Part shown: piece after piece, positions 60,923-64,000 of the stretch | How positions within the stretch are numbered: the first letter of the stretch is position 1 | How the letters are laid out: the number at the start of each line of letters is the position of its first letter | NCBI GenBank assembly: GCA_002897635.1 | Contig: BDTD01000015.1 | Span: 1-64,000, forward strand | Source of the DNA: a bacterium BMS3Abin11 | GTDB lineage: Bacteria; Pseudomonadota; Gammaproteobacteria; BMS3Bbin11 | Reading direction: 5' to 3' | Length of the DNA stretch: 64,000 bases | Program-made: the position numbers and the translations under genes | The notes under the pieces: model-generated | Seen by the model: the letters and a program-made list of their open reading frames with translations, nothing else | Database searches by the model: none | What the model was told of the DNA's origin: nothing

Positions 60923-61663
60923 CTATACCTTAATATAGATCCACCCCTGTTTCAGGCGAGTTATGATCTGCTCCAGCGCAGAAGGTGCTATTTCTGCTTC
61001 CGGGATCAGTTTCACCTTAATACCCTTGTCTTCCAGACGTTTGATAGCACGACTACAGGCAAGAATTGAGAAATTATCATATTTTTTAGAAAGTTTTGTG
61101 ATCCGATCCGCATATACGGTCTTATCTACCCTGATCAAATTCAGCCCCCCTCCATTGGTGATAATTTCCAGTTCAAATGGGTACCCACCAGTAGCCGCAG
61201 CAAGTAGCAGGTCTTCGGCCGAATCCAGTGCAGCGGTCAATCTGGCTGGTTCTGCAGAATCTACATGCAGAATAACCCTCTTCTCTTCTGCCTCTAGAGG
61301 CAGGCTGGCTATACCCCTGTCAGAGAGAAGCTTATGCTCGCTACCTTGAACAAGGCTTACATCCATCCTGTCATGAGCTAACCAGCCAACAGCGGTGCCT
61401 ACTGTCAGTAACAATGTAGCCGCTACAGCCATAGCCGAGTACTGTTTGCCGAATTTCCAGCGCGATTTTTCCTGCCTGCTGGTTGGTGGGATACTGTAAG
61501 CAAACTGTGTCAGTTCCTTTACATTGCGTAATTCACACAGTCGTTTTGCCAGAGCTGTATCAGTCTCCAGTGCAGCCATAACTTCACCGCGCTCATCACT
61601 GTCCAGTTCATTATCCAGATAGGCATTCAAATGCTCATTCGATATATCGTTTATATTTGTCAT
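60923..61663 (-). CDS. Anti-sigma factor with periplasmic DsrE-like domain
   Basis: A 246-residue protein in three parts. The cytosolic N terminus (EHLNAYLDNELDSDERGEVMAALETDTALAKRL) looks like an anti-sigma domain but lacks the zinc-binding His/Cys motif. One helix (AMAVAATLLLTVGTAVGWLA, about 80-99) crosses the membrane. The periplasmic part (about 125-246: KRVILHVDSAEPARLTAALDSAEDLLLAA, LEIITNGGGLNLI, FSILACSRAIKRLEDKGIKV, LKQGWIYIKV) follows the DsrE/F fold and keeps a single cysteine like its divergent neighbour. It overlaps the sigma gene by 4 bp. Sensing through the cysteine is inferred. Confidence 0.85.
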   Translation of the reverse strand: MTNINDISNEHLNAYLDNELDSDERGEVMAALETDTALAKRLCELRNVKELTQFAYSIPPTSRQEKSRWKFGKQYSAMAVAATLLLTVGTAVGWLAHDRMDVSLVQGSEHKLLSDRGIASLPLEAEEKRVILHVDSAEPARLTAALDSAEDLLLAAATGGYPFELEIITNGGGLNLIRVDKTVYADRITKLSKKYDNFSILACSRAIKRLEDKGIKVKLIPEAEIAPSALEQIITRLKQGWIYIKV

Positions 61664-62220
61664 TTTACCCTCCTGAGCCTGAGCCCAGTATTTCCATGGG
61701 ATTGATTGAGTTCAACAAGACTGGAGCGCAGTGTTTGCCTTGCTCTGCATAAGCGACTCATTACCGTTCCAATTGGAATTTCCAATGCCTCACTGACTTC
61801 GTTATAGGTCAATTCTGCCAGGTCAACCAGTGTGACTACCTGGCGTTGTTTTTCAGGTAGTTCAGCAATGGCACGTCTGATACGGAGGACAATCTGACTC
61901 TCGTGGTGCTGCTCTTCCGGCGAGCTGTTACCGATTAGCCCTGCATCATCGATATCAATAGTTTCCTTCTGAGCGCGCAAGTGATCCTTCCAGCAATTGG
62001 ACAGTATCCTGAACAACCATGCATCGAGCATTTCTCGATCGCGCAAACTGGCAATATTTTGCAGCGCCTTGATCAATGCCTGCTGGGTCAGATCATCAGC
62101 CAGATGGCTATCACGACACCAGGACCATGCGACACGATACAGGCGGTCTCTGCGGCGCTCCAGCTCATCATCAATTTCCTGTTGCTTTAATAATCTCTTT
62201 ATCAATTTTATTTTTGCCAT
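61660..62220 (-). CDS. ECF RNA polymerase sigma factor
   Basis: A 186-residue sigma-70 ECF factor. Region 2 contains LYRVAWSWCRDSHLADDLTQQALIKALQN and DAWLFRILSNCWKDHLR; region 4 contains AELPEKQRQVVTLVDLAELTYNEVSEALEIPIGTVMSRLCRARQTL. The ATG at 62220 has AAGGG at a good distance; one codon set earlier (62229) is too close to it. It is cotranscribed with its anti-sigma partner and divergent from a secreted DsrE-like protein and a porin. Confidence 0.94.
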   Translation of the reverse strand: MAKIKLIKRLLKQQEIDDELERRRDRLYRVAWSWCRDSHLADDLTQQALIKALQNIASLRDREMLDAWLFRILSNCWKDHLRAQKETIDIDDAGLIGNSSPEEQHHESQIVLRIRRAIAELPEKQRQVVTLVDLAELTYNEVSEALEIPIGTVMSRLCRARQTLRSSLVELNQSHGNTGLRLRRVK

Positions 62221-62573
62221 CGGGATCATCCCTTACACATAGCTGTTAGACGTTTACACATCAATTTCTATTCCATTTTCATCTAATTTGTACAAAAGTC
62301 ATATTTTGTTGCAAATAAATGGAATAATTTCGCTTTTCCTTCGTCTATATATAGAAGCAACTAACGGGTAACACTAATCTTATTTTATTTAGTGCCTGTA
62401 TGGCAACGGTGCAATATCACCGTACCTCCCGGCATTTTATAGAAATATCTGTTGCCTAAGTTGCATGCCTTGTGGCTGACTCGCTTCACCACAAAAAATA
62501 AAATTAGATAATTTTACAACATTACCACGTATCAACTGTGTTTGAAGATACAAGGACCAAAAGAGGATACAAC
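62221..62573. promoter_or_regulatory. Divergent regulatory region of sigma and dsrE-like genes
   Basis: A 353-bp gap without genes. ACGGTGCAATATCACCGT at 62406-62423 is a perfect 6-6-6 inverted repeat, a possible operator or small hairpin. A second inverted pair, TTGTGG...CCACAA, lies near 62469-62493. No certain ECF -35/-10 pair could be assigned. Confidence 0.55.
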
Positions 62574-63032
62574 ATGTATAAATCATTAGGTATAAGGGCA
62601 TTGGTGATACTCGCTATATTGTCCTTTGGCCTGGCTTCGGTTGCACATGCTGCCGAGATCAAGACCGACAAGCCATTTGCTACAAAGAAAATCGTATTGC
62701 AGATTTCTGACCCAAACCCATTCAAGCAAACACTGGTACTCAACGTCGCCCACAATCTTCTCAAGGCTTATGGCACTGAAAATATTGATATTGAAATTGT
62801 TGCCTTTGGACCTGGTTTGCGTCTGCTATTTGCTGAAAATGGTAATAAGGGACGTATTGCCTCACTTTCCAGTGAAGGTGTCCGATTTGCTGCGTGTAAG
62901 AATACAATCCGGGCCATGGGTAAAAAACTGGGTCATCCGCCAGCGATAAACCCCGTTGCAGTTAAGGTTAGTGCGGGTGTGAGTCGCATTATGGATCTGG
63001 TTGATAACGGTTACATACTGATAAAACCATAA
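62574..63032 (+). CDS. Secreted DsrE-like protein
   Basis: A 152-residue protein with a signal peptide (ALVILAILSFGLASVAHAAE) and a DsrE/F-type domain: KKIVLQISDPNPFKQTLVLNVAHNLLKAYG, IDIEIVAFGPGLRLLF, VRFAACKNTIRAMGK and GVSRIMDLVDNGYILIKP. The single cysteine in AAC aligns with that of cytosolic DsrE-type sulfur-binding proteins and of the divergent anti-sigma factor. The ATG at 62574 follows GAGG. It is 24 bp upstream of the porin gene; the two are probably cotranscribed. Confidence 0.9.
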   Translation: MYKSLGIRALVILAILSFGLASVAHAAEIKTDKPFATKKIVLQISDPNPFKQTLVLNVAHNLLKAYGTENIDIEIVAFGPGLRLLFAENGNKGRIASLSSEGVRFAACKNTIRAMGKKLGHPPAINPVAVKVSAGVSRIMDLVDNGYILIKP

Positions 63033-63056
63033 AGCCTTCAAGGGAGAAACAAAAAA

Positions 63057-64000
63057 ATGAAATTACTTAAAAAAGCAATCATAACTGCTGCCCTTGCGGG
63101 TAGCATGCTGGCCATCAGCCAGGCGCAGGCGGCCAACTGGCTAATGCTACAGGGCACAGAAAAACCCGGACAGGCTGCACGTGCCAAGGTCTGGGGTTTC
63201 GTACAGGTCCAGTACCAGAATGATACTTCCGATGCCAATAAAGCCGGGGGTTATATCCCCCCCAAGCTGGTTCCCCCAAACCTGTCATCCCAGTCAGCGT
63301 TTAATGTTAACCGTGCCCGTATCGGCGCGCGTGGTACTGGCATGCCACTGGACAGCAATGTTAACTACTTCGTGCTGGTTGAATTTGGCAATAACGGTAT
63401 CACCGAACCAGGCGGGTCCTTCGCAAAGTTGACGGATGCTAGCATCACCCTTAATCACATCCCCGGTGCACGCATTCGTACTGGTCTGTTTAAATATCCG
63501 GGTGCCGAAGAAGGCCTGCAGGCAATTCACGTCTTTGACTGGGTGAACTTTACCGATGTATCTAACCAGATGTTGCTGGAACGCTTTCCGAATCAGTCAT
63601 ACACCCCAAATATTCCACCACAGCCTATTCCACCAAGAACAGACCTGCAGGGATTTGATGATGGTGTTGGTGCCTTTCGTGATGTCGGCATACAGGTCTT
63701 TGATTCCTTCATGGTTGGTGCAGGCAAAGACTGGGATCTGAGCTATGCATTGATGGTTGGTAATGGAAACGGCCTCAACTTCTCGGACAACAATAGCAAA
63801 AAAGATATCTATGCCTATTTTTCTGCAGAAAAAGTGTTTAAAGGCAAAGGCCCTTTCCGTGAAGGCATGAAGTTCCTCGGCTGGTCACAAACTGGCGTGC
63901 GTAGCTATGATGGCAATAACGACGGGGTTAGTGAGAACTATGATCGTGATCGCTGGGGTATTGGTTTTAAATTAAAGAAATCCAACTATCGTGTAACGAC
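63057..64000 (+). CDS. Outer membrane porin, phosphate-selective OprP/OprO-like (partial)
   Basis: The frame from ATG at 63057 (GGGAG site) stays open to the window end, 314 codons. It has a signal peptide (KKAIITAALAGSMLAISQAQAA), a first strand KVWGFVQVQYQND, then NVNRARIGARGTGMPLDSNVNYFVLVEFG, typical of phosphate-selective-type porins that begin with a swirling run of amphipathic strands. RTGLFKYPGAEEGLQ and DVGIQVFD also fit. The substrate is unknown, and the name is by family only. Incomplete at the right edge. Confidence 0.88.
   Translation, partial: MKLLKKAIITAALAGSMLAISQAQAANWLMLQGTEKPGQAARAKVWGFVQVQYQNDTSDANKAGGYIPPKLVPPNLSSQSAFNVNRARIGARGTGMPLDSNVNYFVLVEFGNNGITEPGGSFAKLTDASITLNHIPGARIRTGLFKYPGAEEGLQAIHVFDWVNFTDVSNQMLLERFPNQSYTPNIPPQPIPPRTDLQGFDDGVGAFRDVGIQVFDSFMVGAGKDWDLSYALMVGNGNGLNFSDNNSKKDIYAYFSAEKVFKGKGPFREGMKFLGWSQTGVRSYDGNNDGVSENYDRDRWGIGFKLKKSNYRVT

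Follow-up and report, generated by a model that had tools for sequence, protein, structure and literature searches.

The DNA considered here comprises positions 1–64,000 of contig BDTD01000015.1 of bacterium BMS3Abin11 (assembly GCA_002897635.1); this stretch of 64,000 nucleotides is called the window below. Four genes lie at its end (60923–64000): an extracytoplasmic function (ECF) sigma factor and an anti-sigma factor on the minus strand and, divergent from them on the plus strand, a secreted DsrE-type protein and an outer-membrane porin (Table 1). A preliminary description had drawn attention to this gene order, which is as it claimed and recurs at 51 of 137 distinct loci. It had also proposed that the anti-sigma factor carries a DsrE-type domain outside the membrane with which it senses sulfur, thiols or metals. 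The sigma/anti-sigma framework as such is already known; the new part is the DsrE-type sensor domain that is attached to it.

Table 1. Features of the locus in the window (numbering from the first nucleotide of the window).
Feature	Position	Strand	Remarks
Anti-sigma factor gene (P0001)	60923..61663	-	246 aa; 4-bp overlap with the sigma stop codon; model pLDDT 87.7
Periplasmic DsrE-type sensor domain, residues 128-245 (predicted)	60929..61282	-	Foldseek 1l1s E 4.3e-9, 2pd2, 2hy5_C (DsrEFH); Pfam DsrE E 0.002
Codon of invariant Cys203, sole cysteine of the periplasmic part of the anti-sigma factor	61055..61057	-	75/75 sensors; codon checked
Transmembrane helix, residues 74-99 (predicted)	61367..61444	-	Model helix H74-99; QYSAMAVAATLLLTVGTAVGWLAHDR; N-in by the positive-inside rule
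Anti-sigma domain helices, residues 9-55, cytoplasmic (predicted)	61499..61639	-	Model helices H9-16, H22-34, H36-55; weak zf-HC2 / RseA_N matches
ECF sigma factor gene (P0003)	61660..62229	-	189 aa; Pfam Sigma70_r2 2e-14, Sigma70_r4_2 1e-16; NCBIfam sigma70-ECF above cut-off
Predicted ECF promoter, sigma/anti-sigma operon	62249..62274	-	GGAATA-N16-CGTC(TAA)
Predicted ECF promoter, DsrE-porin operon	62321..62345	+	GGAATA-N15-CGTC(TAT)
Secreted DsrE-type protein gene (P0002)	62574..63032	+	152 aa; Pfam DsrE E 0.0016; 1l1s by sequence 3e-10, by fold 2.7e-10
Signal peptide of the secreted DsrE-type protein	62574..62651	+	MYKSLGIRALVILAILSFGLASVAHA; ends ...ASVAHA; read from sequence
Codon of invariant Cys108, secreted DsrE-type protein	62895..62897	+	Motif AC-x-NT; 53/53 relatives; codon checked
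Outer-membrane porin gene	63057..64000 in window, reaches 64397	+	446 aa full length

The sigma factor consists of regions 2 and 4 only, which places it among the ECF sigma factors. Translation probably begins not at the listed start but 9 nt further on, at the second ATG (62220), since the predicted promoter lies so close. The porin gene is cut by the window edge; at full length, the protein scores above the Pfam cut-offs for Porin_4 (4.7e-8) and Porin_O_P (1.1e-6).

Membrane anti-sigma factors restrain the sigma factor with which they are encoded, and the product of the gene directly downstream of the sigma gene, to which it is coupled by overlap, is presumably a membrane-held inhibitor of this kind. 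AlphaFold models of the anti-sigma factor and of the secreted protein, built with alignments of 75 anti-sigma factors and 53 secreted relatives, respectively, reached a mean predicted local distance difference test (pLDDT) score of 87.7 and 95.0, with about 97 for the DsrE domain; a linker around residues 102–109 of the anti-sigma factor is poorly predicted. The model displays a helical anti-sigma domain, a membrane helix and an outer sensor domain, i.e., the layout of class I anti-sigma factors, although the Pfam matches of the anti-sigma domain are weak. RseA and RsiW likewise combine an N-terminal anti-sigma domain, a single membrane helix and a periplasmic sensing part with a co-encoded sigma factor (PMC7406223). 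The zinc-binding HxxxCxxC motif is absent from the anti-sigma sequence, which therefore falls outside the zinc-binding redox anti-sigma (ZAS) class. The anti-sigma domain contains a lone cysteine, C43, found in 56 of the 75 aligned sensors, and an aspartate, D17, that is invariant among them.

Matches to the Pfam DsrE family are weak in both proteins (18.6 and 19.0 bits vs. a curated cut-off of 22.7, covering residues 131–245 of the anti-sigma factor), and both domains are filed here as DsrE-type by fold, not as members of PF02635. Because the Pfam and NCBIfam scores remain under cut-off, the assignment was built on profile, structure and phylogenetic tree. Sequence comparison links both proteins to MTH1491 (PDB 1l1s): a profile of three anti-sigma factors matches it at E=9e-5, the secreted protein at 3e-10. 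In Foldseek searches, 1l1s was found with both models, with a template modeling (TM) score of 0.89 by target for the anti-sigma factor and of 0.82/0.91 for the secreted protein. MTH1491, whose function is unknown, is the closest solved structure to both; 2pd2 is matched as well, and the DsrEFH chains are more distant matches. The 75 sensors cluster together in a DsrE-domain tree, joined by two other sequences (support 0.977), so that the fusion between anti-sigma factor and DsrE domain looks to have arisen once. Structure prediction, proposed as a check in the preliminary description, thus bears out a DsrE-type fold for both proteins, outside the membrane in the anti-sigma factor and behind a signal peptide in the divergently encoded protein.

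The claim that a single cysteine is conserved at matching places in the two proteins holds as well. Cys203 is invariant, and a second periplasmic cysteine is found in none of the 75 aligned sensors. A single alignment column holds Cys203, Cys108 of the secreted protein, a cysteine of MTH1491 and the single cysteine of the cytoplasmic DsrE of the host; through this host protein, both residues align with the position of DsrE Cys78. Sulfur oxidation in Allochromatium vinosum depends on DsrE-Cys78, which binds sulfur as a persulfide (PMC3397948), whilst cysteines of DsrE3A of Metallosphaera accept thiosulfate from tetrathionate to form Cys-S-thiosulfonate (PMC4175335). The DsrE-type proteins studied have no reaction of their own toward thiosulfate or low-molecular-weight persulfides (PMC3397948, PMC4175335). 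By analogy, Cys203 and Cys108 may be the sulfur-carrying residues of two periplasmic proteins. His133 is also well conserved in the sensors (70/75) and is mostly replaced by Gln in the secreted relatives.

The distribution of the family was studied in a sample of 369 genomes of Gammaproteobacteria (in the GTDB sense), which was searched with the three-sequence anti-sigma profile. With the matches from a scan of named genomes added and duplicates removed, 137 distinct full-length anti-sigma factors were retained; GTDB matches to the anti-sigma domain only (L205–L217, L219 and L220, from Methylobacterium and others) were excluded. The sigma gene lies directly upstream in 136 of the 137 loci, the remaining one being located at a contig end. 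A secreted DsrE-type protein is encoded divergently in 67 loci, including the 51 with a porin, and downstream in the same direction in another 18, so that it adjoins the sensor in 85 loci altogether. Thus, the neighborhood survey suggested in the preliminary description shows that the grouping is not confined to one genome. In the scan of named genomes, the family turned up in Thiohalobacter, Thiohalophilus, Guyparkeria, Halothiobacillus, Thiogranum, Acidiferrobacterales and numerous metagenome-assembled genomes. In a wider phylum sample, full-length members were found only in Gammaproteobacteria, and the other matches cover one half of the protein.

At the syntenic site of a genome of the same genus (G003), the anti-sigma factor is reduced to its final 95 residues between the same flanking genes, and the sigma factor, the secreted DsrE-type protein and the porin are missing. 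This joint loss fits a four-gene module. The remnant (L007 / L063, G003:C33:53877-54161) is 68% identical to its counterpart; the three missing genes look as if they had been lost in one deletion. The same genome contains a second, diverged sigma/anti-sigma copy (34% identity), which is divergent from genes for a TlpA-like protein and a secreted DsrE-type protein.

The preliminary description envisaged control of the pore by the sigma factor, and the promoter region bears on this. The window and two relatives first suggested a consensus (GGAAT-spacer-CGTC), which was then sought across all loci in the form GGAAY-N15-18-CGTC. This motif precedes the sigma gene in 95 of 136 loci, as compared with 1.1 in shuffled sequences (at most 4), and the divergent DsrE gene in 36 of 67 loci, as compared with 0.66 (at most 3). 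Its spacing is almost constant across loci, and its form is nearly always GGAATA. Loci where the DsrE gene is located downstream of the anti-sigma gene provide an internal control: in 16 of these, the divergent site is never found, whereas the sigma site is present in 14. When only a porin is encoded divergently, the divergent site is found in five of seven loci. The window itself holds two sites against 0.15 expected in 64 kb. In the host genome, ten exact copies of the motif (N15-16) are found, eight of which are inside open reading frames (ORFs); no intergenic copy exists apart from the two in the window. That the sigma factor acts on the DsrE-porin genes, as predicted, is supported by this shared divergent promoter.

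The hosts of the family are sulfur oxidizers by gene content. The anti-sigma factor was found in 66 of the 369 genomes, one of which (G264) contributes a partial match at a contig start, and all 66 encode SoxB (64) or DsrA (53). Of the 303 genomes without it, 95 contain SoxB or DsrA (Fisher p=1.4e-28) and, correspondingly, it was found in none of the 208 sampled genomes with neither. No weight was given to co-occurrence with the secreted DsrE-type protein, as its profile may also match sensor domains. The host itself encodes SoxB (G000:C30) and a run of dsrA, dsrB, dsrE, dsrF, dsrH and a dsrC-like gene (G000:C25), in which DsrA was identified by model and the others were read from ORF order.

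Sulfur-oxidation genes are also found next to the module. In 10 of 134 loci, sox genes adjoin the sigma/anti-sigma pair, perhaps representing three or four independent arrangements rather than ten. In two of them (L090, L104), the pair stands at the head of a co-directional series comprising soxX, soxY, soxZ, a SoxA-like gene and soxB. In five loci (L106, L161, L165, L169, L181), the divergent operon continues from DsrE and porin to a thioredoxin and a TsuA/YeeE-like transporter. A gene for a SoxB-like metallophosphoesterase, about 26% identical to SoxB and under the SoxB cut-off, is divergent from the sigma gene in L088 (2786-4960), L101 (4494-6626) and L079, where it is cut by the contig end; the divergent promoter site is present in L088 and L101. 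Of the signals originally proposed, sulfur is thus favored by host distribution and neighbors, and thiols are possible in view of the thioredoxin-like neighbors; for metals, there is a stray neighbor in one locus.

Taken together, the fold, the single invariant cysteine, the module conserved over 137 loci, the divergent promoter pair, the link with sulfur-oxidizing hosts and the sox/TsuA neighbors suggest that the module is an ECF sigma/anti-sigma switch that responds to reduced sulfur in the periplasm, a reading to which we assign a probability of roughly two in three. In resting cells, the anti-sigma factor would keep the sigma factor at the membrane. Reduced sulfur species entering the periplasm, i.e., sulfane sulfur, polysulfide, or thiosulfate/tetrathionate, would be the signal, and Cys203 would gain a persulfide or S-thiosulfonate, either directly or with the secreted DsrE-type protein as donor. 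The loaded sensor may then alter its shape or partner, and the sigma factor would be freed by conformational change or regulated proteolysis to transcribe the operon that encodes it as well as the DsrE-porin operon. In other species, it might also drive the genes for a SoxW-like thioredoxin, a YeeE-like transporter or the SoxB-like protein. As a result, more of the sulfur compound would be taken up and handled in the periplasm. Going further, the family may be a class of transmembrane regulators that is widespread but undescribed, in which extracytoplasmic sulfur is sensed by being covalently loaded on the single cysteine of a DsrE-type domain with the secreted DsrE-type protein as the periplasmic donor, so that a sulfur relay is used for signaling and feeds into control of the porin and, elsewhere, of sox/TsuA uptake genes; we propose this tentatively, at somewhat less than even odds.

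Several observations weigh against the proposed sulfur switch. The co-occurrence with sulfur-oxidation genes is partly phylogenetic, as the 66 genomes, which span 40 sampled families, are not independent. In 45 of the 137 loci, the anti-sigma gene, with its sigma gene, has no adjoining DsrE or porin gene, and neighbors include unrelated genes, such as those for DAHP synthase and a kinase. The predicted DsrE promoter is located about 230 nt from its gene (window 62346-62573). Genome-wide, the motif total equals that of a reversed-pattern control, and a regulon predicted with the strict motif is at background; therefore, a regulon beyond the local divergon is not claimed. It is also doubtful that thiosulfate is sensed directly. 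As the DsrE proteins studied do not react directly with thiosulfate or small persulfides, Cys203 would more likely obtain its sulfur straight from tetrathionate or a protein donor. As to the 230 nt before the start of the secreted DsrE-type protein, they could accommodate a long leader or a second promoter.

Alternatively, the system could be a general sensor of periplasmic redox or thiol state, in which a mixed disulfide links Cys203 to a partner, either thioredoxin-like or the secreted DsrE-type protein, without any transfer of sulfur atoms. As the sensor has one cysteine, an internal disulfide is excluded and an intermolecular bond would be natural, and TlpA/thioredoxin-like proteins are encoded nearby in nine loci (L062, L065, L074, L106, L161, L165, L169, L181, L186). 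However, such a general sensor would not be restricted to genomes with sox or dsr genes, and the thioredoxin-like genes are mostly found with sox and TsuA genes, where SoxW-type proteins are to be expected. We consider this option unlikely. Rather improbable is also a role of the DsrE domain as a mere docking site, where binding of the secreted DsrE-type protein, sulfur-loaded or unloaded, or of a SoxYZ-like carrier would by itself trigger release of the sigma factor. The frequent proximity of the secreted relative is consistent with such a contact, as is the multimerization of DsrE-type proteins with each other in DsrEFH (PDB 2hy5), which was matched by Foldseek. Nevertheless, more than one third of the loci lack a neighboring secreted DsrE-type protein, and docking alone would not need the cysteine that is kept in 75 of 75 sensors. 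A metal or metalloid sensor that controls the porin by binding a soft metal via Cys203 and His133 could explain why this histidine is conserved in the sensors and mostly Gln in the secreted relatives, and one neighbor is a Metal_resist (LTXXQ) protein (L160), but one Cys and one His make a poor site, genes for metal transport or resistance do not recur in the neighbor census and the distribution tracks sulfur oxidation, which renders it highly unlikely. Equally remote is an envelope-stress system of the RpoE/RseA type reporting on porin assembly with a purely structural DsrE domain. The anti-sigma architecture, the weak RseA_N similarity and the porin target recall RpoE logic, but the invariant cysteine, the confinement to sulfur oxidizers, the sox/TsuA neighbors and a promoter position that implies activation rather than repression of the porin speak against it.

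Other features of the neighborhoods deserve mention. In L071 and L077 (G232:C26 and G116:C22), two sigma/anti-sigma-DsrE pairs lie one behind the other in the same orientation, with another secreted DsrE gene after them; the pairs could possibly form a two-sensor cascade. A gene for a ModA-like periplasmic binding protein (SBP_bac_11) is located directly downstream of the anti-sigma gene in ten loci (L161, L169, L181, L186, L198, L168, L171, L106, L112, L117), and its product may bind a sulfur oxyanion. In five others (L113, L125, L129, L139, L140), a conserved protein of 385–424 aa, for which a scan of two members gave no Pfam match, is encoded downstream of the anti-sigma gene; two of the sensors in these loci branch outside the main clade. 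On a short contig of the same genus (L258, G006:C73), the secreted DsrE gene is flanked by two related porin genes, indicating porin duplication. In the host, a gene for a TRAP-type solute-binding protein (window coordinates 64505-65590, L003:9505-10590) is convergent with the porin gene and is also found at this site in G001, G003 and G006. The recurrent neighbors GlnE, PilT and GroEL (e.g., L064, L075, L078) were dropped, as they appear to reflect shared chromosomal position and not function.

The preliminary description knew of no such system, and a description of an anti-sigma factor combined with DsrE was not found in the open-access literature either, a search in which ECF classifications were represented by their main text; text matches to both terms were noise (e.g., DsRed). 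In the main text of the 2020 ECF classification, DsrE does not appear among the fused sensor domains (PMC7406223). Functionally, two systems come nearest. The ECF26 sigma factors RpoE1 and RpoE4 of Sinorhizobium meliloti, each with a co-encoded anti-sigma factor, respond to sulfite, being switched on when thiosulfate or taurine yields it, and drive the adjoining gene for periplasmic SorT (PMC3511301). However, this system is alphaproteobacterial, its anti-sigma factor is of the COG5662 type with no DsrE domain reported, and its target is a sulfite dehydrogenase instead of a DsrE-type protein and a porin (PMC3511301). In Hyphomicrobium denitrificans, SoxR/sHdrR and SoxT1B tune sulfur-oxidation genes to external sulfur, and YeeE-like membrane proteins are co-encoded (PMC10451225, PMC11582611). 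Yet, SoxR and sHdrR are cytoplasmic repressors of the ArsR type, which respond to sulfane sulfur and need its import or a membrane relay (PMC10451225, PMC11582611), whereas the system described here has its predicted sensor itself beyond the cytoplasmic membrane and acts through a sigma factor. Finally, DsrE/TusD and DsrE2/DsrE3 have the same fold, with the sulfur-binding cysteine at the same place (PMC3397948, PMC4175335), but are soluble cytoplasmic carriers, in contrast to the transmembrane sensor domain and the secreted protein found here.

Extracytoplasmic sulfur sensing by the regulators of sulfur oxidizers has been called poorly understood (PMC11582611). The present family offers a concrete candidate for a membrane sensor in 40 sampled families of sulfur-oxidizing Gammaproteobacteria, for which a residue, a promoter motif and a target operon can each be named, with Thiohalobacter thiocyanaticus, Thiohalophilus thiocyanatoxydans and Guyparkeria hydrothermalis among its cultured hosts; the DsrE-porin arrangement is present in G. 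hydrothermalis. The regulators of sulfur oxidizers known to us are cytoplasmic repressors. Likewise, few proteins are, to our knowledge, known for the uptake of sulfur compounds across the outer membrane and for their carriage in the periplasm, and the linked porin and secreted DsrE-type protein are candidates for these functions.

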